From contig QHSP01000035.1 in the NCBI GenBank assembly GCA_003220495.1, positions 1 to 64,000 of the forward strand: a stretch of DNA of 64,000 nucleotides, given 5' to 3'. This document shows positions 577 through 13,592 of the stretch, piece after piece (position 1 is the first letter of the stretch; each line of letters starts with the position of its first letter). Source of the stretch: Candidatus Rokuibacteriota bacterium. GTDB lineage: Bacteria; Methylomirabilota; Methylomirabilia; Rokubacteriales; CSP1-6. The translations under genes and the position numbers were made by a program. The notes below the pieces were generated by a model that worked only from the letters and a program-made list of their open reading frames with translations, was not told where the DNA came from and did not search any database.

Positions 577-963
577 TTACCCGAGAGGTTTGATGTGCTG
601 ACGAAGCCAGTCGGTCAGCCGGCGGTGGTCGAGGCGACCTGTGGCGAGATCGAGTATGAGGTGTTCCTGCGCATCGGTGGCGGCATCGATCTCGTGACCG
701 TTGAGGACCAGGAAAGTCTCCATGGCGCCATGCCCGACGCGCTTGTTGCCATCGACGAAAGGGTGGCCCTGAACCAAGGCCAGACACAGTGCCGCGGCCT
801 TCTCGGGAAGAGTGGGGTACAAGTCACTACCACCGAATGTGGCTTTGGGTTGGGCGACTGCCGACTCAAGCGCACCGAAGTCCCGAATGCCGGACGCGCC
901 GCCTGTCGCCGCCAAGAGACGCCGATGGAGTTCGACGATCTCTCCCAGCGTGAGGTAGCGCAT
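577..963 (-). CDS. doc: Doc-type Fic-fold toxin (death-on-curing protein)
   Basis: This 128-residue protein carries the Doc/Fic signature HPFVDGNKRVGH at residues 67-78. Length and N-terminus (MRYLTLGEIVELHRRLL) fit the Doc family, whose members phosphorylate EF-Tu and halt translation. The ATG overlaps the stop of the upstream antitoxin gene by 3 bases (ATGA), as expected for a translationally coupled toxin-antitoxin pair. The pair lies between two attC-like sites and runs opposite to the assumed cassette direction, as in many integron-borne toxin-antitoxin cassettes. All catalytic-motif residues are present, so the toxin looks intact. Confidence 0.92.
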   Translation of the reverse strand: MRYLTLGEIVELHRRLLAATGGASGIRDFGALESAVAQPKATFGGSDLYPTLPEKAAALCLALVQGHPFVDGNKRVGHGAMETFLVLNGHEIDAATDAQEHLILDLATGRLDHRRLTDWLRQHIKPLG

Positions 964-1157
964 CAGGCGAGGCGCCGGTACAGCTCCTCGTTCTTCTGTA
1001 ATACACGCTTGGCGGCGGCCTCGAAGTCGTCGTCCCGAGTCGCCAGCAGATCCGCAACTGCGGCCCGGGCCAGATCCTCCGGCGTGAGGCCAAGGCGCTC
1101 CGCCTCCCGACGTAGGCGCTCACCCTGCGCCTGCGACAGGTCGATGGTGACTTTCAT
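963..1157 (-). CDS. Antitoxin partner of Doc
   Basis: A 64-residue protein starting MKVTIDLSQ, with an N-terminal ribbon-helix-helix-like or Phd-type DNA-binding segment and a charged C-terminal helix ending RVLQKNEELYRRLA. That type of tail is seen in antitoxins paired with Doc-family toxins. I chose the ATG at 1157 because an upstream in-frame start (1196) would run into the attC-like site. It precedes and overlaps doc. Such antitoxins neutralise the toxin and usually repress their own operon; that role is inferred from position and size. Confidence 0.8.
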   Translation of the reverse strand: MKVTIDLSQAQGERLRREAERLGLTPEDLARAAVADLLATRDDDFEAAAKRVLQKNEELYRRLA

Positions 1158-1184
1158 GTGGGTACTGTACCGTGTCGCCGGGCC

Positions 1185-1247
1185 GTCCAACAACATGGTG
1201 GAGCGGACCGGCCCAGAGCGGCCGGCCGCTCACCATGCACGTTATAC
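1185..1247 (+). repeat. attC-like integron recombination site 2
   Basis: It begins with GTCCAAC (1185-1191) and ends with GTTATAC (1241-1247), which departs from GTTRRRY at one position. ATGGTGGAGCGG (1195-1206) pairs with CCGCTCACCAT (1226-1236) leaving one unpaired G, like the extrahelical bases that orient attC. An inner CCGGCC/GGCCGG stem completes the fold. CCG and CGG flank both ends, as in site 1. The two sites share architecture but not stem sequence, as attC sites of different cassettes do. Confidence 0.6.
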
Positions 1248-1515: not shown

Positions 1516-1977
1516 ATGGGAAGGATCGTCGTAACAGAATTCGTCTCGCTCGACGGTGTCATGGAGGCTCCTGGCGGCGGAGAGGGCTACAAGCACGCAG
1601 GTTGGACCTTCAAGATCGATCGCGGAAAGGAGGGCGACAAGTTCAAGCTCAATGAGACCCTCAACAGCGAGGCGCTACTGCTTGGGAGGGTGACCTATGA
1701 GGGCTTCGCTGCGGCCTGGCCGTCGAGGACCAATGAGTTCGCGACAAGTTCAACAGCATGCCCAAATATGTCGTCTCCTCGACCCGCGGTCGTCCTCGGA
1801 AGCGGCAAACGCCTGTTCGGCGATACGACCGACAAGAAGCGCCTGCGGCTCGCGGACTCAAAAACGGTCGGCGACGGGATTACGATTCTCATCTTCCAGC
1901 GGGCGGGTGAAGTCGCTAACAGGGAGGCCCGTGAGGGCGACAACCGGAGCGCCATCCGGGCGGATCGTCGCTGCTAG
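1516..1977 (+). pseudogene. Dihydrofolate-reductase-family (RibD C-terminal fold) gene, internally deleted
   Basis: The N-terminus MGRIVVTEFVSLDGVMEAPGG and the segment EALLLGRVTYEGFAAAWP are typical of YyaP/YwjB-type dihydrofolate reductase family proteins. After TNEFA a one-base loss shifts the frame: a GCG-GAC-AAG-like codon order would restore KFNSMPKYVVSST. The reading then jumps to PAVVLGSGKRLFGDT from near the C-terminus. About 50-60 residues of the usual middle are missing and the original frame is regained, so the ORF survives without a complete fold. It sits last in the cassette-like series and its 3' end abuts the next operon. Most likely inactive. Confidence 0.7.
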
Positions 1978-3254
1978 CGGATCGCCATCTCGGTCGGTTC
2001 GACGCCGCGTAACCCGTAGCGGCCCATGAAACGCAGGAGGCCACGGCTGTAGCCACGGAGCGTGCCCATCCCGGAGGCCTGTAGCGCGATGTGACGCTCG
2101 ATGTGGTTCTGGGCTGCGCTCTTGATGGCGTTGGTCCCGACCGCCATCCAGTCGCGTCCGGCGCGGAAGAGCGCCGCCATCCGGCCGTCGTAGAAGGTCG
2201 CCACCAGATCGAGCCAGGCGGTGAGCATCGCCGTCTGCATCGTCGCGTACGGCCGAAGCGCCGCCTCGAGCTCCGCGAGCGAGGGAGGCTGCTCGGATTT
2301 CGCGAACGGCGCCAGCGCGTCGGCCACCAGCTCGGCCGAGCGAAGCGCCAGGAGCACGCCGGGCGAGAGCATCGGGTCGACGAAGCCGAAGGCGTCGCCG
2401 ACCATCACCCAGCCGGGCCCGAGACCTCGGTGTGAGATCAGCTGGTAGTTGGCGTAGGTCGCGACCGAGGTGACGCGCTTGCTGCCGCCGCCGATCGTCG
2501 ACAGCCACGCGTCGGTCGCGATGGCCCGCTCGAGCCGCTCGGCCGGGCTCGCGCCGAGCCGAGCGGCGTCGTCGCGCCCCAGCACGATCCCGATCGAGAG
2601 CCGCTCGCGGAGCGGGATGCACCAGCTCCAGCCCGCGTCGAGACGCCTGATCAGCACCTGTCCGGGCTCGTCGTCCCAGGCGAAGTTCTCGAAGTGGGCG
2701 AAGTGCGCGACGTCCTTGCGCGGCCCGAAGCGGGCGCCGATGCTCAGGGCGCGCGCGCCGAGGCGGGCGCGCCCGGTGGCGTCCACGACGAGATCGGGTT
2801 GCCGGCCTTCGAGCGACGGCGCGGCGGCCAGGGTTTCGGGCGCCAGGCCGAGCTCGCGCCCACCTTCGCTGATCGGCTCCACGCGCGCGTGGGCCACCAC
2901 GCGCGCGACCCCACACGCGACCGCGCGCGCGAGCACCGCATCGTCGAATCGCGGGCGCGGAATGTTGTAGGCGTATGGGAACACGCCCGGCGCGAAGCGC
3001 TCGAAGGAGAAGCTGAAGCGGTCGTTCGGGGACCAGATGAAGGACACGCCCGGCTTCACACGGCTGAAGCTCGCGGTCTCCTCCTCGAGGCCGAGGCGCT
3101 GGAGGATCGGGACGACGGCGGGCACCAGGGATTCGCCGACGAGGAGCTCGGGACGACGGCCGTCGTCGAAGAGCGTGACCTTCGCACCCTGGCGCGCCAG
3201 CAGGATGGCCAGGGCGGCGCCGGAGGGTCCGGCGCCGACAATCGCGACTCTCAT
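1974..3254 (-). CDS. Flavin-dependent halogenase-like FAD enzyme (carrier-protein type candidate)
   Basis: A 426-residue FAD protein with the dinucleotide motif GAGPSG (residues 7-12) and GESLVP (40-45). It has WSWCIP at 209-214, fitting the WxWxIP halogenase signature, and FVDPMLSPG at 291-299, fitting the Fx.Px.Sx.G motif. Lys67 in SRVKPGVSF is at the place of the conserved lysine in carrier-protein-dependent halogenases. GDAFGFVDP is the usual FAD ribityl-binding region. It is the last gene of the 7504-1974 operon, coupled by ATGA to the adenylating enzyme. The carrier protein in the operon would be the natural substrate holder. A non-halogenating oxidase or geranylgeranyl-reductase-like role remains possible, since related flavoproteins keep parts of these motifs. 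Confidence 0.65.
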   Translation of the reverse strand: MRVAIVGAGPSGAALAILLARQGAKVTLFDDGRRPELLVGESLVPAVVPILQRLGLEEETASFSRVKPGVSFIWSPNDRFSFSFERFAPGVFPYAYNIPRPRFDDAVLARAVACGVARVVAHARVEPISEGGRELGLAPETLAAAPSLEGRQPDLVVDATGRARLGARALSIGARFGPRKDVAHFAHFENFAWDDEPGQVLIRRLDAGWSWCIPLRERLSIGIVLGRDDAARLGASPAERLERAIATDAWLSTIGGGSKRVTSVATYANYQLISHRGLGPGWVMVGDAFGFVDPMLSPGVLLALRSAELVADALAPFAKSEQPPSLAELEAALRPYATMQTAMLTAWLDLVATFYDGRMAALFRAGRDWMAVGTNAIKSAAQNHIERHIALQASGMGTLRGYSRGLLRFMGRYGLRGVEPTEMAIR

Positions 3255-4711
3255 CGCCGAATCTTGCCGCTTGGGGTCCTGGGGACTGCATCCACGACGG
3301 TAAACTCGAGCGGCACCTTATACGAGGACAAAGCACGGGCGCAATGCGATCTTAGGGCATCGAGATCGCAGCCGGCCGGGTCTACGACGACCTCGGCGCA
3401 GGGCACCTCGCCCATGCGAGCGTGGGGGCGCCCGAAGACGCGAGATTCCTTGATCCCCGGGAACTGGTTGATGCAGTCCTCGACTTCCTCGGGGAAGAAC
3501 TTCAAGCCGGCTACCAGGATGAGTGCCTTCTTTCTGCCTTTCAGGTGGAGGGCGCCTGACCGGTCCAGGAAGCCAAAGTCACCGGTGAGGAACCAGCCCT
3601 CGCTCGCGACCTGTTCGCGAAGCCGCCAGGGCGAGTAGTAGGCCGAGAAGAGCCCGTCACCCCTCACCCCGATTTCACCCAACGTCTCCGGAGGTAGAAG
3701 CTTTCCGTCATCCGAGAAGATCGCCACGGCATAGCCGGGCACCGGACGACCGACCGAGGTTGCCGGCAGACCCTCGGTGCCCAGGTTGATACACGGCAGC
3801 CCGGCTTCGATGATGCCGTAGGCCTGACCGACCGGGACGCCGTAGACCGACTCGAAGCGCTCCATCACCACCGGCGCGATCGGCGCCGCGGTCGAGAGCG
3901 TCACGCGAATGCTCGAGAGCGGATCGCTCGGTCCAAGGTTGCCCATGCGCTCGAAGTGGAGCGGCGCCGCGTAGAGCACGCTCGCGCGGAGGCGGCGCGC
4001 GGCGTCGACGATCGCTTTCGGGAGCGTGTCCGGACACAGGAGGATGTGGGAGCCGGCGCGGACGTACGCCGTGATCGTGACCGCGAAGTGGTAGGCGAGG
4101 GGAAGCACCCACAGGATGCGATCCTCCTCGCTGAACTTGAGGACACGGTCGGAGGCCTCCACGCGCGCGGCGGTCGCCTCGTGGGACAGCACGACGCCCT
4201 TGCTCCGCGCGGTCGTTCCCGACGTGAATCGGATGAAGGCGGCGTTCAGCTTGGTGAACTCCACCGGGGCCTCGGCGCGGCGATCGATCCACTGGAACGC
4301 ATAGCCCTCGCACTCGCCGCCCTTCACGACCGCGCGGCGTGCGGAGGCGTCGGCGTGGCCGGGCGCGCTCGGGAGCGGCGCGGCCTTCGGCCACGAGAGG
4401 CAGCCGTTCAGCTGCACCTCGCGGACGATCTCCGCGATCTCGGTCGGCGTGAGGTTGCTGGCGAGCGGCACGAAGCAGGCGCCCGCGGCGAGCAAGCCGA
4501 ACGCGGCGGGCAGATACGTGAGATCGTTCGGGGCCAGGAGCCCGATACGCTGGCCGGGCTCGACGCCCTCGGCCTTGAGGAATGCGGCCAGCCGCTCGGC
4601 TTCGCTGGCGAGCTGGCCATAGCTCACGGACCGCCCCGACCGCACGTCGGTGACCGCGCGGCGCGGCGAATGGCGCTCGGCCGTCGCGAAGAGAATCTCG
4701 GCGAGGTTCAT
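3251..4711 (-). CDS. Acyl/aryl-AMP-forming ligase (ANL superfamily)
   Basis: A 486-residue class I adenylate-forming enzyme. The phosphate loop is FTSGTTARSKG, the hinge region includes GWFLTGDFGFLDRSGALHLKGR, and the catalytic A10 lysine lies in RTPSGKIRR at the C-terminus. The enzyme should activate a carboxylic acid as acyl-AMP and pass it to a thiol, here most plausibly the carrier protein at the head of the operon rather than CoA. The start at 4711 has GGAGGGG just upstream and overlaps the previous stop (ATGA). The substrate cannot be read from the sequence. Confidence 0.85.
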   Translation of the reverse strand: MNLAEILFATAERHSPRRAVTDVRSGRSVSYGQLASEAERLAAFLKAEGVEPGQRIGLLAPNDLTYLPAAFGLLAAGACFVPLASNLTPTEIAEIVREVQLNGCLSWPKAAPLPSAPGHADASARRAVVKGGECEGYAFQWIDRRAEAPVEFTKLNAAFIRFTSGTTARSKGVVLSHEATAARVEASDRVLKFSEEDRILWVLPLAYHFAVTITAYVRAGSHILLCPDTLPKAIVDAARRLRASVLYAAPLHFERMGNLGPSDPLSSIRVTLSTAAPIAPVVMERFESVYGVPVGQAYGIIEAGLPCINLGTEGLPATSVGRPVPGYAVAIFSDDGKLLPPETLGEIGVRGDGLFSAYYSPWRLREQVASEGWFLTGDFGFLDRSGALHLKGRKKALILVAGLKFFPEEVEDCINQFPGIKESRVFGRPHARMGEVPCAEVVVDPAGCDLDALRSHCARALSSYKVPLEFTVVDAVPRTPSGKIRR

Positions 4712-5931
4712 CGCCCCTCCGCGCAGCGCGCGGCCGCCCGGCCGACGGCCTCGCCGGCCGCCAGGCACGTACCGATCACGCGCGCCGAGCCCAGCGCCTC
4801 GTGCGTGGCGCTCATGCAGCGCCCGGCGACGAAGAGGTTCTCGACGTCGCGGGCCTGGAGGCAACGGAGCGGTATGTCGTAGTGAGCCCGGTCGTCGAGC
4901 CACTCGTAGGTGGCGCCGAGGCGGCCCTCTTCCCAGAGCTCGATGGGCCAGCTCGCCCGGGCTACGCCGTCGTCGAACTTGCGGCCGGTCAGCACGTCGT
5001 CGCGCGTGAGCTGATAGCGCCCGATCACGCGGCGGCTCTCGCGGACGCCGACCTGCGGCGCGGCGTGGGAGACGAACGCCCGGGAGAACGCCGGCAAGGT
5101 CTTCAGAAACTCCGTGACGGCGAGGGCGCGCTTGCGGCCTTCCTGCTCGGCCACCGTCAGGAAGTCGCGGCTCGGGGGCAGCTCCTCGGTGATTCCGCTC
5201 AAGGTGAGCTTGCAGACGATCTCGCCGGGCTGGGGCGACGGACCCAGCGCGAGGTTCGCCGCGCCCTTGGGCAGGCGGCCCTCTTGCTCGGCGGTCACGA
5301 GCGACCGCAAGAGCGCCACCCGCGGGCCCGATCCGAGCGCCGCGGTGTCGACGTGCTGCAGGACGAAGACGAGGGACGGCAGCTGGCGCTCGGCCAGCGG
5401 CGTCGTTGCCGTGGCGGTGCCGGCGAGATGCGCCAGGGCGGCGTCGCCGCTGGCGTCCACGACGGCGCGCGCTGCCAGCTCGACGACGCGCTCCCAGGTG
5501 GCGACGCGTACCGCTTCGACACGACCCGGGCGGCTCTCGAGCCCCGTGAGGATCGTGTGGAGATAGACGTCGAGCCCGGAGGCCGACATGGTGAGCTCGT
5601 CGGCGAGACAGGCGAACGCGAACGGAGTGTACGGCAGGACGTGCGTTCGCCCCCGGCGTATCGGCGCGCCGCAGCCGGGCATGGCCGCGAGGCGGCGGGC
5701 CACGTCGTTTGCGAAGCCCTCGTTGAGCGGCTCGGGCGGTCCGGCCGACGAGGTCAGATAGAGGCCGCAGACCGTGCTCACCATGCCCGCGGTCGCCATG
5801 CCGCCGAGAAAGCCATAACGCTCGACGAGCGCGGTGCGAGCGCCCGTGCGCGCCGCCGTCACGGCGGCGGCCATTCCGGCGGCTCCGCCGCCCACCACGA
5901 CGACGTCGTAGCTCAGTGAGCCGCTCGCCAT
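4708..5931 (-). CDS. FAD-dependent oxidoreductase (FAD_oxidored family)
   Basis: A 407-residue flavoprotein with an N-terminal Rossmann motif VVGGGAAGMAAAVTAARTG, then ERYGFLGGMATAGMV, which is typical of the FAD_oxidored (PF12831-like) group. A C-terminal FAD segment reads NLFVAGRCMSATHEALGSAR. No signal peptide or membrane helix is evident, so it should be cytosolic. I start it at 5931, giving a 19-base overlap with the preceding gene; a longer in-frame start exists but lacks family-like sequence. In the operon it may desaturate or oxidise the carrier-bound intermediate; that is inference. Confidence 0.82.
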   Translation of the reverse strand: MASGSLSYDVVVVGGGAAGMAAAVTAARTGARTALVERYGFLGGMATAGMVSTVCGLYLTSSAGPPEPLNEGFANDVARRLAAMPGCGAPIRRGRTHVLPYTPFAFACLADELTMSASGLDVYLHTILTGLESRPGRVEAVRVATWERVVELAARAVVDASGDAALAHLAGTATATTPLAERQLPSLVFVLQHVDTAALGSGPRVALLRSLVTAEQEGRLPKGAANLALGPSPQPGEIVCKLTLSGITEELPPSRDFLTVAEQEGRKRALAVTEFLKTLPAFSRAFVSHAAPQVGVRESRRVIGRYQLTRDDVLTGRKFDDGVARASWPIELWEEGRLGATYEWLDDRAHYDIPLRCLQARDVENLFVAGRCMSATHEALGSARVIGTCLAAGEAVGRAAARCAEGR

Positions 5932-7238
5932 CCCATCCCCTCGCGGATCGCCTCGATGATGCGCGCCACCTCCTGGGTTTCCATCGCGCCCTCGATCCAG
6001 GATACGACCAGGTTGTTCTTGATCCCGCAACGGTTGAAGAATACGCCGACCCCAGGCCGCGGCAGCACCGATGGAGCGTGATATGCGTTGGTGACCCGCC
6101 GTCCGAAGAGCTTCTCGAGCGCGGGTGGAAAATCCGCCAGATCCGCACAGTTGAAGGAAAACGTCTCGCGGGTCGCCGTGCCGGGCAGGTCGCGCAGCAT
6201 CAGCGCGAGCGGCCGGTACTTCAGGAACTCCATCGCCACGGCGTTGGCGTCGATTTGCCCGTCGCGGAGCGCGTCCGTCATCTGCTGGCGCAGCGCCCGC
6301 GTGAGGCGGTCCACGTCGGCCGTCTCCGAGGGCTTGAACCGCGCGAAGTGGAATGCGAGCACGTTGCCGAACGTCGCGCCCGGCTCCCCCTTGGGTCGCA
6401 GGTCGATGGAGACCGGGACCAGAAACGGCAGGTCGGGGAGGCCGCGCCGTCGCCAGAGGTCGGCCATGGTGCTACCGACCAATGCGAGACGCCAGCAGAT
6501 CTCGCGGGTCGAACGCACGCCGCCGAGGCCGTGATCGTCGCCGACGAAGCTCGCCTGCTCGAAACGGACCCGTCCCGGCGACGTCAACCCGGTGCCCGGC
6601 GACACCGGCGCCTCGGGAACCAGCGTCCGCATGTAGCGCTGACTGCTGCGCCCGAGTCGTCCGCGCTCCTTCAGCGGCCGCGGATCAGGCCCGGTGACGA
6701 ACACCGACGGCGCGCCCCCCCACGGCGCGCGCCCGTCGCTCTCGTCGAGGTGCGCGAGGTGCGCGAGCAAGTTCTGTCCGCCGCGCGGGTCCATGAGCGG
6801 GTGAAACCAGGTCACGACGAGGGCGCTCTGCAGCCCCGCGGCTTCGGCCGCGCCGTCGAGGATCGCGAAGCGCAGCGGTGGCTCGCGGCGGGGATCGATC
6901 GCGGCGTTGAGCTCGGCCTCGAGCTCGGCGTGAAGCGCTCCAGGTGAGCTGAGACGCTTGTGCCGCACGGGCGGGGCGGCCAGCGCCGCGCGCGCCCCGG
7001 CGGCCCAGTGGAGCGGTCCCCACGGGAGCCGGCGGCGGAGGCGGGCTGACGGCCACGGGCAGAAGTCGAGAAATCGGTCGAGAGCCCGCCCAATGCGCGC
7101 GTGGTCGAGCGGCCCGTCGCAGTGGACGACCATGAGCGTGTTGTTGCTGATGCCCTCGCGCTTCCAGAGCGCCTGCATCGCTACTAGAACGAGATCGGCG
7201 CCGCGAAGGGGCAGCCGGCGGACGCGTGGTGTGCTCAC
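5913..7238 (-). CDS. Condensation-domain-like acyltransferase
   Basis: A 441-residue protein with the organisation of condensation / wax-ester-synthase-like acyltransferases. The motif WFHPLMDPRGG keeps the catalytic histidine (His146) and aspartate (Asp150) of HHxxxDG, but Phe replaces the first His and Pro the Gly. Further conserved-looking blocks are PFLVPVSIDLRPKG and SFNCADLADFP, near the regions where such enzymes carry DFGWG/NxxxR-type elements. It starts at GTG, coupled to the carrier-protein stop (GTGA). It probably joins the carrier-bound acyl group to an amine or alcohol. Standalone condensation enzymes of this sort are poorly predictable. Confidence 0.65.
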   Translation of the reverse strand: MSTPRVRRLPLRGADLVLVAMQALWKREGISNNTLMVVHCDGPLDHARIGRALDRFLDFCPWPSARLRRRLPWGPLHWAAGARAALAAPPVRHKRLSSPGALHAELEAELNAAIDPRREPPLRFAILDGAAEAAGLQSALVVTWFHPLMDPRGGQNLLAHLAHLDESDGRAPWGGAPSVFVTGPDPRPLKERGRLGRSSQRYMRTLVPEAPVSPGTGLTSPGRVRFEQASFVGDDHGLGGVRSTREICWRLALVGSTMADLWRRRGLPDLPFLVPVSIDLRPKGEPGATFGNVLAFHFARFKPSETADVDRLTRALRQQMTDALRDGQIDANAVAMEFLKYRPLALMLRDLPGTATRETFSFNCADLADFPPALEKLFGRRVTNAYHAPSVLPRPGVGVFFNRCGIKNNLVVSWIEGAMETQEVARIIEAIREGMGWRAAH

Positions 7239-7504
7239 GCGCTCCGTCGACAGATGTAAGCCGCGAAGGCGCGCGCGGTTCTGATGTTGTCGGTGACGAG
7301 GTCCTCGTCAGGCATCCAGAACCCGTAGTGAGCCTCGATGAACAGCAAGACTTTGAGGAGCGCCATCGAGTCGAGTCCGGCCAGCTCGAGATCGTCGTCG
7401 GGTCGCACCGGCCGGGTCCGCGCCATGATGGTCGTGTTGATGAAGTCCGTCACGGCTCTCGCGACCTCTTCGGGATCGAGCCGTGAGAGATTCCCGGTGG
7501 ACAT
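7235..7504 (-). CDS. Acyl/peptidyl carrier protein
   Basis: An 89-residue protein with the 4'-phosphopantetheine attachment motif LAGLDSMALLKVL; the serine of DSM is the expected attachment site. The following FIEAHYGFWMPDEDLV matches helix III of acyl carrier proteins. It is the first gene of the five-gene operon and would tether the intermediate for the adenylating, oxidising and condensing enzymes downstream. The ATG at 7504 is preferred over 7543, which adds residues untypical of carrier proteins. An AT-richer stretch (7505-7560) upstream may hold the operon promoter. Confidence 0.9.
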   Translation of the reverse strand: MSTGNLSRLDPEEVARAVTDFINTTIMARTRPVRPDDDLELAGLDSMALLKVLLFIEAHYGFWMPDEDLVTDNIRTARAFAAYICRRSA

Positions 7505-8348: not shown

Positions 8349-9620
8349 GTGAAGCGACTACGATCGCGCGCCCCGAAGCCGAAAGCCGGTCCGTTCGACG
8401 GCTATCGGCGCCGCGAGGTCCCTCCGCCCGATCCCGAGCTGACCCAGGTCGGTCCCGGAACGCCGTGCGGTGAATATCTCCGCCGCTTCTGGCAGCCGGT
8501 CGCGTTCGCGCGCGATCTCACATCGGCGCCGCTGAGGATCCGGATCCTCGGTGAAGACCTGGTGGTCTTCCGCGACCGCGGCGGGCGCGTCGGCGTGCTG
8601 CACTTGCACTGCGCGCATCGCGGGACGTCGCTCGAGTTCGGGATCCCGCTCGAGCGCGGCCTTCGCTGCTGCTACCACGGCTGGGTCTACGACATCGATG
8701 GCCGGTGCCTGGAGACGCCGGGGGAACCCGCGGGTAGTCGTCTCAAAGAGCGCATCTGGCAGGGCGCCTATCCGACGCACGAGCTCGCGGGCCTCGTGTT
8801 CGCGTACCTGGGCCCGGCCGACCGGCGCCCCGCGTTCCCGATCTACGATAGCTTCGACGTGCCTGGCCATCAGCTGATGCCCGCCGCGAAGTTCATGCTG
8901 TCCTGCAACTGGCTCCAGGTGAAGGACAACAGCATGGACCCGGTGCACACCGCGTTCCTGCACGCGCTCAGCAGCGGCTACCAGTTCACGGAGGCGTTCG
9001 GCGCCGTCCCCGAGCTCGACTGGAAGCTGACCGACGCCGGCATGGTCTATCTCGCGACGCGGCGCGTGGGTGATCGCGTGTGGGTCCGCGTGTGCGACTT
9101 CATGCCGCCGAACGTGCATCAGTTCACGCGCGAGATCGAAGACGCGAGCGAGCCGAAGCCGGCGAGCCGTCCCGTAATCATTCGCTGGGCCGTGCCCAAC
9201 GACGACACGCACACGACCAACTTCGAGCTGGCGCAGGTGGATCCGGCGTGGGGGCTCACGGCGGAGCAGGTGGGCCGGCCGGGCTTCGGCCAGTCCGACG
9301 ACCGCCCCTACGCCGAGCGGCAGCGCTTTCCGGCCGACTTCGACGCGCAGTCGAGCCAGCGGACGATCGCCGTGCACGCGCTCGAGAACCTGGCATCGAC
9401 CGACCGCGGCGTGATCATGCTCCGCCGCATCGTGCGAGACGGCATCCGCGCGGTGGCGCGCGGCCGCGATCCGTACGGAACGCGGCGGCCCGAGGGCAAG
9501 GTGATCCCGACGTTCACGCAGGACGTCGTGCTGCGCGTGCCGCCGGCGTCGAGCGCGGAGGCGGACCGCAAGCTGCTGCGGGCGACCGGACGGTCAGTGC
9601 TCGCGAACGGGCGAAGCTAG
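8349..9620 (+). CDS. Rieske non-heme iron oxygenase
   Basis: A 423-residue oxygenase with a Rieske [2Fe-2S] centre (Cys88-x-His90 and Cys107-x2-His110, in CAHRG and CCYHGW). The mononuclear iron site is NSMDPVHTAFLH (His200, His205). The single-gene layout resembles phthalate-type or vanillate O-demethylase oxygenases, which hydroxylate or demethylate aromatics using electrons from a separate reductase. No reductase or ferredoxin gene is adjacent. It starts at GTG with AAGGAGAGG upstream. Its neighbours (flavin monooxygenases, TfdA-like enzyme) suggest aromatic or herbicide-like substrate breakdown. Confidence 0.88.
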   Translation: MKRLRSRAPKPKAGPFDGYRRREVPPPDPELTQVGPGTPCGEYLRRFWQPVAFARDLTSAPLRIRILGEDLVVFRDRGGRVGVLHLHCAHRGTSLEFGIPLERGLRCCYHGWVYDIDGRCLETPGEPAGSRLKERIWQGAYPTHELAGLVFAYLGPADRRPAFPIYDSFDVPGHQLMPAAKFMLSCNWLQVKDNSMDPVHTAFLHALSSGYQFTEAFGAVPELDWKLTDAGMVYLATRRVGDRVWVRVCDFMPPNVHQFTREIEDASEPKPASRPVIIRWAVPNDDTHTTNFELAQVDPAWGLTAEQVGRPGFGQSDDRPYAERQRFPADFDAQSSQRTIAVHALENLASTDRGVIMLRRIVRDGIRAVARGRDPYGTRRPEGKVIPTFTQDVVLRVPPASSAEADRKLLRATGRSVLANGRS

Positions 9621-9651
9621 AGAGCGGAGCCGATCGAGCGGCCCGTCGCGG

Positions 9652-10821
9652 CTAGAGCCGCGCTTCGTCGATCTTCAGGCCGAGCCAGTAGCGGCCGATC
9701 AGCTCGTAGTGGGCGAGGCGTCCCTGCAGGTGCTGCGTGATCACGTGGATGTCCTGGAAGTGCCGCTGGATCAGGTTGTCTTCGTACGCGGCGGTCGCGC
9801 CCGCGGCGTTGTAGAGGCTGTCGATGATCTGGGCCGCCAGGCGAATGCCGTGCGTGGTGGCCAGCCGGAGATTCGCGCGGTGCTCGAGCGCGAGCACGTT
9901 GTTCACGCTCGCCGCCCACGCCTCGCGTACCGCCTCGTAGAGGAACGCGCGCCCCGAGCGCAGCGCCGCCTCCGCCTGGCCGACCGTCATCTGGACCATC
10001 GGCTGCTCGCGCAGCAAGGTCGGCATCGCGCGGGGCGTCTTGGCGCCGGCCAGCTCGCCGAACGTCTCCAGACACGTGCGCGACATGCCGAACGCGACCG
10101 CGGCGTCGCCGGAGGCGAACAGCAGGGTGCGGGGGATCCGGTAGAGCGGCGCGTCCTCGACGAGCGTTGCCGTCTGCGAGAGCACGGTGCGCTCGGTCGG
10201 CACGAAGACGTCCTTCACCGCGAAGTGGTGCGTGCCCGTGCCGCGCATGCCGCGGGTGTGCCAGGTGTCGAGCAGCTCCGCCTCGGCGACCGGCACGAAC
10301 ATGTAGCGCGCCTCGGGCGCGGCGCCCTCCATGCGAATCTGGCCGTTCTCGGTGATCTGCGCGTGCGCCGCGACCCACGATGCGTGTCGGCAGCCGGTGC
10401 TGAATCCCTGGCCGCCCGGGGGGCTGGTGACGCGATAGCCGCCCGGCACCACGATCGCCCTGGCGGTCGCCGCCGGGGTGTTCGCCACGACGGCGCGCGG
10501 TACGTCGGCCCAGATCGTGCGCGCGACCGCGCGCGGCATGCGCGCGGCGTACGTGCCGAAGATGGCGCCCTGGTTCAAGCACCAGCCCGTGCTCGCGTCG
10601 GCCTTGCCGATCTCCTCGATCACCTGGACGTACGTGGGCAGGTCGATCTCACCGCCGCCGATGGCCCGCGGGATCGCCATGTGGAACAGCCCGGCGTCGG
10701 CCATCGCCTCGAAGAGCGCGCGCGGCAGCTCGCGGTTTTGGTGGATCTCGTCCGCGGCGGCGCGGATCTGCGGGACGAGCTTGCGCGCGGCGTCGAGTGG
10801 CGAGCGGCCGTCGGTGTCCAG
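9652..10821 (-). CDS. HsaA/DszC-like flavin monooxygenase (acyl-CoA dehydrogenase fold)
   Basis: The reading frame has the N-terminal helices (AARKLVPQIRAAADEIHQN), GLFHMAIPRAIGGGEID, the middle beta domain (WHTRGMRGTGTHHFAVKDVFVP) and C-terminal helices of acyl-CoA-dehydrogenase-fold oxygenases such as HsaA and p-hydroxyphenylacetate hydroxylase C2. These use reduced flavin supplied by a reductase. From the ATG at 10704 the protein would be 350 residues and lack the first 39 family residues. Similarity continues to a CTG at 10821 (389 residues, the normal length) with no ATG, GTG or TTG in between. I annotate from the CTG but the start is uncertain. The gene follows the TfdA-like gene by 16 bases. 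Confidence 0.78.
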   Translation of the reverse strand: MDTDGRSPLDAARKLVPQIRAAADEIHQNRELPRALFEAMADAGLFHMAIPRAIGGGEIDLPTYVQVIEEIGKADASTGWCLNQGAIFGTYAARMPRAVARTIWADVPRAVVANTPAATARAIVVPGGYRVTSPPGGQGFSTGCRHASWVAAHAQITENGQIRMEGAAPEARYMFVPVAEAELLDTWHTRGMRGTGTHHFAVKDVFVPTERTVLSQTATLVEDAPLYRIPRTLLFASGDAAVAFGMSRTCLETFGELAGAKTPRAMPTLLREQPMVQMTVGQAEAALRSGRAFLYEAVREAWAASVNNVLALEHRANLRLATTHGIRLAAQIIDSLYNAAGATAAYEDNLIQRHFQDIHVITQHLQGRLAHYELIGRYWLGLKIDEARL

Positions 10822-10837
10822 GGCAGGAGCTCGCGGG

Positions 10838-11725
10838 CTAGGAGCCGGCCGAGACGAGCGCGGGCTCGGCGATATCGAGGGTGGTCACGCGGCGAAGCTC
10901 GCGACGATATTTCGCGTCGTCGAACGGCGTCGCGCGGTGCATGGTCGCACGGTTGTCCCAGATCACGAGGTCGCCGACGCGCCAGGCGTGACGGTAGACG
11001 TTCTCGCGCTGGGTCGCGTGCTCCGTCAGGTCGCGCAGCAGGAGCCGGCCCTCCGCGATCGGCCAGTCGATGACGCGCGACTGGTGCGAGGCCAGGTAGA
11101 GCGAGCGCCGGCCGGAGCGCGGGATGATCCGCACGAGCGGATGGATCGCGCCCTTCAGCTGGTCCTGCTCGTCTTGCGAGTACTCGAAGCCGAGGATCTG
11201 ACGTGAGTGCGTGATGGAGTGATGCGTGCGCAGGCCCTCGATCAGCGTCTTCGTCTCGGCGGGCAGCGAGTCGTACGCGGCGCGCATGTCGGCGTACTCG
11301 GTGTCGGCCGAGACCGGCGGCACGACCTTCGCGTGCAGCATCGAGTAGCGGCCCGCCGGATCGCGGAACGACGCGTCGGTATGCCACAACCGGTTGCCCA
11401 GGCCGTACTGCCGCCGGCGATCATCGGCCTGCATGATCTCGCCTTCCCTGTCGAGGTTCGAGATGTCGGCGAGGGCCTCGTTGCCGAGCCGATTCTTCGT
11501 GATCACGCGACTCCCGGTGCCCTCGTGGAGCTGCCCGTCCAGGCGCTGAGCGAACGCGAGCTGTTCCGCGTCGGCGAACGGCTGATCGCGGAAGACGAGC
11601 ACGGCGAATTCGTCCAGGCCCGCGCGGATTTTCGCGAGCGTTGCTTCGTCACGGACGGTGCGGAGCTCGATCGGACTGGCTTCGCCGACGAAAACCGGGT
11701 GGAGCTTCCGGAATGAGACCGACAT
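10838..11725 (-). CDS. TauD/TfdA family alpha-ketoglutarate dioxygenase
   Basis: A 295-residue Fe(II)/2-oxoglutarate dioxygenase. The iron ligands are in LWHTDASF (His-x-Asp) and the distal His in NRATMHRATPFDD; RRELRRVT supplies the 2-oxoglutarate-binding arginine. Length and N-terminal layout fit TfdA/TauD enzymes that cleave aryloxyacetates, taurine or related substrates by hydroxylation. It lies upstream of the HsaA-like monooxygenase in the same direction. The substrate is not predictable, though the oxygenase-rich neighbourhood favours an aromatic ether or xenobiotic-like compound. Confidence 0.88.
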   Translation of the reverse strand: MSVSFRKLHPVFVGEASPIELRTVRDEATLAKIRAGLDEFAVLVFRDQPFADAEQLAFAQRLDGQLHEGTGSRVITKNRLGNEALADISNLDREGEIMQADDRRRQYGLGNRLWHTDASFRDPAGRYSMLHAKVVPPVSADTEYADMRAAYDSLPAETKTLIEGLRTHHSITHSRQILGFEYSQDEQDQLKGAIHPLVRIIPRSGRRSLYLASHQSRVIDWPIAEGRLLLRDLTEHATQRENVYRHAWRVGDLVIWDNRATMHRATPFDDAKYRRELRRVTTLDIAEPALVSAGS

Positions 11726-11810
11726 GGTCCCAAGAGGGTAGGACGGCGCAGGCGGTCCGTCAAGCGTTTGGCCGGTCGAAATTCGCGGGGAACGCCGCGA
11801 GCTCGGGCAC

Positions 11811-12245
11811 TCAATCCGGGTAAACGGAGAAGCCGCTGGCTCGCGCTGCTGCGGCCAGCCTGGTGTCGAAGGTCGCGAACGACGCCGCGCGCCCGGACGC
11901 TGCTAGCGCCAGATGGAGCGCGTCGGCGGCACGCAACGGAGCCGCCTGCAACGAGAGCAGGAAATGTTCCGCTCGGCGGTGGACGTCCTGTGTCAGCTCG
12001 ACGCGGTGGTAGACCCCCTCGTCGAGGCGCGTGAGGATCGCGTGCTGAAGTCGCCGCGCCGTCTCCCGCGTGAGCGACTTCTGGTGAAGTCGCCGCGCAG
12101 CCGCCGAGCCGACTTCGGTTACGGCCAGATCGGATACGAGGACATCTTGTCGTCCCTCTAGCACTTCGTTGAGCTCGTCGCCTCCGGGTTCGGGCAGGTA
12201 CAGCTTCAGCAGGGCGCTGGTGTCGCAATAGAGAGGTCCGGGCAG
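11811..12245 (-). CDS. PIN-domain (VapC-like) toxin, start unclear
   Basis: The frame encodes a PIN ribonuclease fold: LYCDTSALLKLYLPEPG with the first catalytic Asp, SDLAVTEVGSA with the Glu, RAADALHLA with the second Asp, and FATFDTRLAAAARASG with the last acidic residue. A GTG start at 12164 would remove the first Asp. The frame is open further up and the only possible start near the expected N-terminus is a CTG at 12245. Either a CTG start is used or the start has been lost. A short antitoxin-like tail lies just upstream. All PIN acidic residues are present, so the domain itself is not eroded. Confidence 0.6.
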   Translation of the reverse strand: MPGPLYCDTSALLKLYLPEPGGDELNEVLEGRQDVLVSDLAVTEVGSAAARRLHQKSLTRETARRLQHAILTRLDEGVYHRVELTQDVHRRAEHFLLSLQAAPLRAADALHLALAASGRAASFATFDTRLAAAARASGFSVYPD

Positions 12246-12297
12246 ACTCGCCCGATAGGCGGCCTGTCGCTCAGCGAGCCACGCTGGGGCACGCCTT

Positions 12298-12360
12298 CTA
12301 GAAGCGATCTTCGCGATCCCGGGCGACAGTCTCGGACAGGGGAGGATCGAGGACCGGCAT
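12298..12360 (-). pseudogene. Remnant of a VapB/Phd-type antitoxin C-terminus
   Basis: A 20-codon tail, MPVLDPPLSETVARDREDRF then stop, resembles the charged C-terminal end of antitoxins that precede PIN toxins. An in-frame stop a few codons upstream, and the start of the next gene on the other strand (12378/12423), leave no room for the DNA-binding part. The antitoxin is probably decayed, leaving the PIN gene orphaned. The identification rests on position and a short sequence. Confidence 0.35.
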
Positions 12361-12422
12361 CGCCTGCTCGAGCGTTCATGCGTCTTGACCTCGCCGTACG
12401 CCCGTCACATCATTGGCGCGGC

Positions 12423-13592
12423 ATGACCCCCGACGCGTACCTGCAACGGGTTCGCTCGCTGCTCCCGGCGCTGCGCGAGCGCGCCGATCAGGCCGAGCGG
12501 CTCCGCCGGCTGCCCGACGAGACCTTCGCGGAGTTCCAGGACGCCGGGCTTTTTCGCTGCCTGCAGCCCAAGCGGTATGGCGGCTACGAGCTCGATCCGG
12601 GCACGCTCTATCAGGCCGTCATGGAAATCGGCACTGTGTGCGGCTCGAGCGCCTGGATCCTCGGCGTCATCGGCGTCCACAACTGGCACCTCGCGCTCTT
12701 CGCGCCCGAGGCGCAGGACGACGTCTGGGGCAAGGACACGAGCCTCCAGCTCTCGACGTCGCTGGCGCCCACTGGGTCGGTCGAGCGCGTCGACGGAGGA
12801 TTCCGTCTGCGGGGCCGGTGGCCGTTCTCGAGCGGGTGCGACTTCTGCCACTGGGCCGTGCTCGGCGGCGTTGTCCCGCCGCTCGCCAAGGACGCGCCGC
12901 CGGACGTGCGGACCTTTCTGGTGCCGCGCTCTGATTACGTGATCGACGACACGTGGCACGCGGTCGGCCTCTGTGGCACCGGCAGCAAGGACCTCATGGT
13001 GGACGGCGCCTTCGTGCCGGAGTATCGGACCCACTCGTACCGCGACGCGTTCTATCTGACGAATCCTGGCGCGGTGGTCAACGACGCGCCCCTCTACCGC
13101 TTGCCGTTTGGCCTGGTCTTTCCGGCGTGCATCGGCTCGCCGGCAATCGGCGTCGCTCTGGGGGCGGTCGCGGCGTTCCGCGAGCAGACGACCACGCGCA
13201 TCTCGCCGCGTGACCAGAGCCGGGTCGCCGAGGATCCATTCGCACAGCTCGCGCTTGCGGAAGCGTCGGCCGAGGTGACCGCGGCGCGCGACCGGCTGCT
13301 CGGGAATTTCGCCGAGGCGATGCAGCTCGCGCGCGAGGGGTCGGAGATCCCGCTGGCCCAGCGGGCACGCTATCGGTGGGATACCGCGAAGGCCACGGAT
13401 CGATCCGTCCGGGCCGTCGATCGCCTGTTCGAGGCCAGCGGCGGCCGCGCCGTCTATCTCAACAATCCGATACAGCGAGCCTGGCGCGACGTCCACGCGA
13501 TCCGCGCGCACGCCGGCAACAATCTCGAGAAGGCGGCGGCCGTGTTCGGCCGCTCCGAGTTCGGCCTGCCGCCCGTCGATCTCCGGTTTTAG
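12423..13592 (+). CDS. HsaA/C2-type flavin-dependent monooxygenase (acyl-CoA dehydrogenase fold)
   Basis: A 389-residue protein. It has an N-terminal helical region (QRVRSLLPALRERADQAERL), DAGLFRCLQPKRYGGYELDPG, a middle domain with GRWPFSSGCDFCHW and DTWHAVGLCGTGSKDLMVDG, and C-terminal helices with YLNNPIQRAWRDVHAIRAHAGNN. These are hallmarks of group D two-component flavin hydroxylases such as HsaA and HpaH/C2. I use the ATG at 12423; an upstream ATG at 12378 adds residues not seen in the family. It is a diverged paralogue of the product of 9652-10821. No flavin reductase is next to it. Confidence 0.85.
   Translation: MTPDAYLQRVRSLLPALRERADQAERLRRLPDETFAEFQDAGLFRCLQPKRYGGYELDPGTLYQAVMEIGTVCGSSAWILGVIGVHNWHLALFAPEAQDDVWGKDTSLQLSTSLAPTGSVERVDGGFRLRGRWPFSSGCDFCHWAVLGGVVPPLAKDAPPDVRTFLVPRSDYVIDDTWHAVGLCGTGSKDLMVDGAFVPEYRTHSYRDAFYLTNPGAVVNDAPLYRLPFGLVFPACIGSPAIGVALGAVAAFREQTTTRISPRDQSRVAEDPFAQLALAEASAEVTAARDRLLGNFAEAMQLAREGSEIPLAQRARYRWDTAKATDRSVRAVDRLFEASGGRAVYLNNPIQRAWRDVHAIRAHAGNNLEKAAAVFGRSEFGLPPVDLRF

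Follow-up and report, generated by a model that had tools for sequence, protein, structure and literature searches.

In a 64,000-nucleotide stretch of contig QHSP01000035.1 (hereafter the window; assembly GCA_003220495.1, Candidatus Rokuibacteriota bacterium), five genes form a compact operon for an acyl carrier protein (ACP), a condensation-like protein (C), a flavin adenine dinucleotide (FAD)-dependent oxidoreductase (FADox), an adenylate-forming ligase (LIG) and a halogenase-like flavoprotein (HAL). We see about an even chance that these proteins constitute a small pathway of discrete carrier-protein type, which would activate an acid, tether, halogenate and transfer it. In an equally balanced judgement, ACP-C-FADox-LIG may be an undescribed module that is shared between phyla and whose hallmark is a condensation-fold family absent from Pfam; Rokubacteria would have made it halogenating by acquiring HAL, a partner that pairs and moves with C as a cassette, and usually a methyltransferase as well.

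The five open reading frames (ORFs) lie head to tail at 7504-1974 (-), exactly at the coordinates given by the original prediction, which was made from the sequence of the window. Along the series from ACP to HAL they overlap by 4, 19, 4 and 4 bases, in agreement with the predicted range of 4 to 19:

7235-7504 (-): ACP, discrete acyl carrier protein, 89 aa; PF00550; phosphopantetheine Ser46 at 7369-7367.
5913-7238 (-): C, condensation/chloramphenicol acetyltransferase (CAT)-fold acyltransferase-like protein, 441 aa; assigned by predicted fold; HPLMD (H146...D150) at 6803-6789.
4708-5931 (-): FADox, FAD-dependent oxidoreductase, 407 aa; PF12831; optional tailoring slot.
3251-4711 (-): LIG, stand-alone adenylate-forming acyl ligase, 486 aa; PF00501 and PF13193; A10 lysine K483 at 3265-3263.
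1974-3254 (-): HAL, flavin-dependent-halogenase-like protein, 426 aa; PF04820; GAGPSG, K67 (3056-3054), WSWCIP (2630-2613) and FVDPMLSPG (2384-2358).

GTDB contigs matching sequence patterns of C came from metagenome-assembled genomes (MAGs) of Candidatus Rokubacteria/Rokuibacteriota, mostly of the "AR" soil series. Among 95 genomes of the phylum, C orthologues were present in 14, all of one family and spread over six genera, while LIG occurred in 16 and HAL in 15. The order ACP-C-(FADox)-LIG-HAL was kept at every intact locus examined. HAL accompanied LIG in 15 of the 16 genomes (Fisher p ~1e-16), and co-occurrence of C, HAL and LIG, with the gene sets compiled by hand, gave p ~1e-15 to 1e-16, both uncorrected for relatedness. 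The set occurs unevenly within single genera: g4, g10, g13 and g23 all include genomes that carry it as well as genomes that lack it, two of the latter (G011 and G032) being 98-100% complete. This pattern indicates that C, HAL and LIG were gained or lost together. The genes compared are under purifying selection (Nei-Gojobori dN/dS 0.02-0.19). Given gene order, selection and co-occurrence, we rejected chance or an assembly artefact as the source of the set. The original prediction had allowed that the order might be unique to this contig; it recurs in Rokubacteria of several genera and, without HAL, outside the phylum, and no described cluster was found to match it. We also rejected primary metabolism, the other doubt it had raised, in the form of a fatty-acid CoA ligase and a geranylgeranyl reductase, since the scores lie far under the NCBIfam cut-offs for these.

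ACP matched the PP-binding profile PF00550 with 29.7 bits (cut-off 20.8). G43, D45 and S46 are invariant in 12 orthologues, and Ser46 is also retained in homologues outside the phylum. Two phosphopantetheinyl transferases (PPTases) are encoded elsewhere in the host genome (5.98 Mb, 98% complete), an AcpS-like one on contig C120 and one of 231 aa on contig C1. With this profile, a modifiable serine and PPTases in the genome, ACP has the sequence features of a carrier protein. LIG scored 224 bits for AMP-binding and 53 bits for AMP-binding_C, and its adenylation lysine K483 (A10) is invariant. Compared with EntF and EntE, it lacks the amine-binding aspartate of adenylation domains for alpha-amino acids in non-ribosomal peptide synthetases (NRPSs): where the EntF A domain has D in TPCSFDVSVWE, LIG reads LPLAYHFAVT, and its homologues outside the phylum (HFVVT) likewise have no Asp. 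An alpha-amino acid is therefore an unlikely substrate, and LIG probably loads a non-amino acid.

C matched no Pfam or NCBIfam family at cut-off, and sequence searches of the PDB with a single sequence or a profile found nothing. We modeled its structure with AlphaFold2 from 17 orthologues (predicted local distance difference test, pLDDT, 65.7; predicted template modeling score, pTM, 0.72). Foldseek returned 254 PDB matches for the model at E ≤ 0.001, with AzeD (3.5e-17) and AmbE CmodAA (7e-16) at the top and C, Cy and E domains of NRPSs next. The model places C in the NRPS condensation/CAT superfamily, with a predicted two-lobed CAT-like fold, so that the label "condensation-like" in the original prediction is borne out by fold and by no sequence library. 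H146, D150 and G153 are invariant across phyla; the motif reads F/C-HPLMD-P/A-RG in Rokubacteria and DHxxxD outside, and only HxxxD is common. C is not an NRPS condensation domain proper, having no PF00668 match and no full HHxxxDG. Release by condensation through C would fit HxxxD and the modeled fold. No PF00668 domain was detected in the host genome either, which agrees with the predicted absence of a modular NRPS cluster. The C profile also weakly recovered a 1760-aa protein that matched ligase queries as well and on these matches is classed as NRPS-like.

HAL scored 75.3 bits against Trp_halogenase (PF04820; cut-off 21). The flavin-halogenase motifs G7xG9xxG12, WSWCIP (one residue variable) and F291xDPMLSPG are invariant in 16 homologues, as are K67, W209, W211, I213, P214, F291, P294, S297 and G299. 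K67 falls at the position of the lysine that precedes W by seven residues in 8zop, CndH and CmlS, the closest solved structures, and by this alignment would be the catalytic lysine that positions hypohalous acid (HOX). Earlier work used the same motif set, described in PMC8407142, to identify a functional halogenase (PMC12645471). Both CndH and CmlS come from pathways associated with carrier proteins (PMC6165268, PMC8407142). An ACP in the same operon and these nearest relatives would suit the class acting on carrier-bound substrates, yet a C+HAL cassette also occurs without an adjoining ACP or ligase. HAL may be a carrier-linked halogenase, and then probably a new one.

A second halogenase-fold flavoprotein, ~28-38% identical to HAL, is found in many Rokubacteria genomes, and 48 of the 95 contain a HAL-like match at E ≤ 1e-20. 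The distant copy in the host genome (L009:9449-10726) keeps a WLWFIP motif. Separately, the HAL frame is in two pieces in the only copy of genome G008 (L043:10874-12101) and in G048 (L047:6565-7774), where C is likewise split; these broken frames may reflect assembly error or decay.

FADox matched FAD_oxidored (PF12831) with 312 bits; its AlphaFold model had a pLDDT of 40.8. The gene is cleanly missing at four loci (L031, L034, L036 and L047), with no other copy in those genomes, and is therefore optional.

Beyond the original prediction, the survey revealed a two-gene cassette, a linked methyltransferase and a version without HAL outside the phylum. The host genome (L008) and six more genomes of its genus carry a second C+HAL pair with no adjoining carrier or ligase, 60-65% (C) and 69-72% (HAL) identical to the operon copies. 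Cassette copies form one fully supported clade in each gene tree, indicating a joint duplication of C and HAL, even though other genes separate the two in the five-gene operon. The ligase locus of G008 and G001 consists of ACP-FADox-LIG alone, and these genomes hold C and HAL solely in the form of the cassette; the two gene sets thus complement each other. This suggests that the cassette uses the carrier encoded at the other locus, with the reservation that the HAL frame of G008 is broken in the assembly. Genome G005 has ACP-FADox-LIG and no detected C or HAL orthologue, an absence that its fragmented assembly (820 contigs) does not prove.

At most loci of both operon and cassette, a convergent gene for a UbiE/COQ5-type methyltransferase adjoins HAL, or LIG where HAL is gone. 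The window operon has no such neighbor; the host genome holds a copy next to the cassette (L008:9882-10610) and another, orthologous to the gene beside HAL in relatives, on the 6-kb contig C102 (L083:3323-4102). The latter stands close to a transposase-like ORF (4915-5934), which suggests that it was moved away from the window's operon.

A scan of contigs with two short patterns had made C appear restricted to Rokubacteria. We rejected this as a sensitivity artefact, since a profile search found relatives in two outside families (G114 and G402; G311, G388, G389 and G390), which may belong to one phylum. C-FADox-LIG stand in the same order in all six outside genomes, at ~23-25% (C), 30-34% (FADox) and 34-36% (LIG) identity to the window proteins. 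An ACP in front of C was resolved at four of the six loci; at L103 the ORF filter left it unresolved, and at L106 the contig ends. HAL was found at none of the six, from which we conclude that the core reaction does not need halogenation and that the halogenase is a dispensable and apparently later part. In the likeliest history, ACP-C-FADox-LIG is the older module and HAL an addition of Rokubacteria; alternatively, HAL may have been lost in the outside lineages. In the first outside family, a B12 radical SAM gene lies upstream. In the second, an extra ACP and two ketosynthase-type genes stand beside it at L094, L104 and L105, with PagL-like and lipid-A-acyltransferase-like genes in addition at L094 and L104. 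The FADox slot of this second family is occupied by two PF12831 types, ~26% identical, as if exchanged (L094:8618-9919, L105:8292-9482, L106:3132-4304), and additional ORFs lie between LIG and FADox at L105 and L106.

From these features we infer a pathway, including its catalytic steps, substrate, acceptor and product. LIG would adenylate a non-alpha-amino carboxylic acid, probably an aryl or short acyl one, and load it onto Ser46 of ACP, primed by a PPTase encoded elsewhere in the genome. With FADH2 supplied by a general flavin reductase, HAL would chlorinate or brominate the tethered acyl group, which FADox would also oxidize or desaturate in some lineages. C would then transfer the finished acyl group from ACP to an amine or alcohol, a release step replacing a thioesterase, and the linked UbiE-like methyltransferase would probably methylate the product or the acceptor. 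The sequence of activation, tethering, modification and transfer put forward in the original prediction thus stands as the most economical reading of an orphan carrier pathway. Its halogenated natural product holds in part: halogenation is predicted from the motifs of HAL, and the product may be a secreted compound or, for example, a part of a lipid or the envelope.

Several observations weigh against the halogenating pathway: HAL reaches 117 bits with the hydroxylase model QhpG as well, under the cut-off of 240; the cassette has no carrier or ligase alongside; the homologous outside loci do without HAL; and C has neither the first His nor the Gly of HHxxxDG, and a structure model of moderate confidence. 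HAL could instead be a flavin monooxygenase (hydroxylase) or another halogenase-fold oxidase, giving a hydroxylated product, an option that we regard as unlikely while granting it real weight. Its linked methyltransferase is UbiE-type, and known UbiE-type methyltransferases act on hydroxylated rings. The distant HAL-like proteins common in Rokubacteria need not be halogenases, and by E-value the best NCBIfam model of HAL is QhpG, a halogenase-fold monooxygenase (PMC7876137). Set against this, the QhpG score falls far short of its cut-off, the three halogenase motifs and the lysine are all invariant, WxWxIP is thought to block monooxygenation (PMC8407142), and the nearest solved structures are named halogenases.

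The two remaining alternatives concern the fate of the acyl group. It is rather improbable that, in place of a diffusible product, the module builds or caps a lipid or pigment bound to the envelope and similar to aryl polyenes, for which LIG and ACP would provide a starter or acyl group to be attached by C. Such a role would suit the ACP, ketosynthase and second ketosynthase-like genes adjoining the module in three genomes of one outside family and the lipid-A-related genes near two of them, and brominated aryl-polyene clusters combine an AMP-ligase, ACP, halogenase, methyltransferase and acyltransferase (PMC3949708). However, no ketosynthase or lipid genes were recognized beside the window operon or the examined Rokubacteria loci, and the other outside family has the radical SAM gene instead. 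Less probable still is that C modifies the tethered acyl group, for example by dehydration as in AzeD or AmbE CmodAA, and that release occurs by hydrolysis or another enzyme. Both top fold matches of C are indeed dehydrating enzymes, the dehydratase AzeD and the condensation domain AmbE-CmodAA; a ranking inside one fold says little with a model of this pLDDT, and the scores of many ordinary C domains trail the best match by no more than three to four orders of magnitude.

Among known systems, the dichloroacetyl module of chloramphenicol resembles the operon in its discrete AMP-ligase CmlK, ACP CmlM and flavin halogenase CmlS, the acid being thought tethered before halogenation (PMC4249514), and CmlS ranks in the top three solved structures matched by HAL. 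The module differs in having no PF12831 oxidoreductase, and its dichloroacetylation genes as listed include no stand-alone C-like one; CmlS has 570 aa and a covalent flavin link compared with 426 aa for HAL, and CmlK groups with salicylate and dihydroxybenzoate (DHB) ligases. The beta-tyrosine module of C-1027 likewise distributes the five roles over discrete proteins, with on-carrier tailoring and transfer by a free-standing condensation enzyme. SgcC1 is its adenylation enzyme and SgcC2 its peptidyl carrier protein (PCP). SgcC5 is the free-standing C enzyme, and SgcC, an oxygenase, and SgcC3, a halogenase, are carrier-dependent (PMC10212144, PMC6165268). The substrate of SgcC1 is an amino acid, whereas LIG is without the alpha-amine Asp; SgcC falls in group D (HpaB-type) of the oxygenases, whereas FADox belongs to PF12831; and C of the window lies beyond Pfam Condensation, with no genes for an enediyne or other acceptor. 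Likened by gene roles, the operon would work as the CmlK/M/S and SgcC1-C5 modules do, and by the tests made it is a member of neither. The pyoluteorin/marinopyrrole pathways (PltA, Mpy16, Bmp2) also modify an acyl group while it is tethered, with a ligase, a carrier, flavin oxidation and a flavin halogenase, but have no C-like transferase, and HAL is closer to CndH, CmlS and 8zop. Their oxidizing enzyme is of the acyl-CoA-dehydrogenase type. The xanthomonadin/arcuflavin aryl-polyene clusters match in AMP-ligase, ACP, halogenase, methyltransferase and acyltransferase (PMC3949708) and differ in ketosynthase, dehydratase and exporter, none of which was recognized at the window locus.

No transporter, regulator, thioesterase or PPTase gene adjoins the five-gene operon, confirming the predicted lack of the last two within it. 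Upstream are a small gene and a Rieske oxygenase gene on the opposite strand, then HsaA-like and TauD genes; the region 8349-13592 of the window encodes the Rieske oxygenase, two flavin monooxygenases of HsaA/acyl-CoA-dehydrogenase type and a TauD dioxygenase. The Rieske and HsaA-like genes adjoin the operon within the window's genus and were not seen at the examined loci of other genera. We rejected the Rieske, HsaA-like and TauD genes as pathway members, since they lie outside the operon and were not seen at those other loci. Downstream follow a RibD_C-domain gene and a Fic gene. The latter, of the Fic/DOC family (577-963 (-); PF02661, 68.6 bits), comes directly after a small antitoxin-like ORF (963-1196 (-)), and the two are a probable Doc/Phd-type toxin-antitoxin pair near the 3' end of the operon.

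In the open-licence literature we found no paper on a Rokubacteria halogenase, on 8ZOP or on PF12831 in biosynthetic gene clusters, which speaks weakly for novelty. Rokubacteria in a survey of soil MAGs had biosynthetic clusters in moderate numbers and seldom many condensation domains (PMC7298704), which fits a condensation-type enzyme missed by the usual model. As C has no Pfam family, mining tools that need a recognizable condensation domain probably miss the pathway as NRPS-like. The operon offers five small soluble enzymes from uncultured soil bacteria that are usable for in-vitro reconstitution, and the natural series of loci, with or without FADox, with or without HAL, and with C and HAL split off, lets the share of each enzyme be tested.

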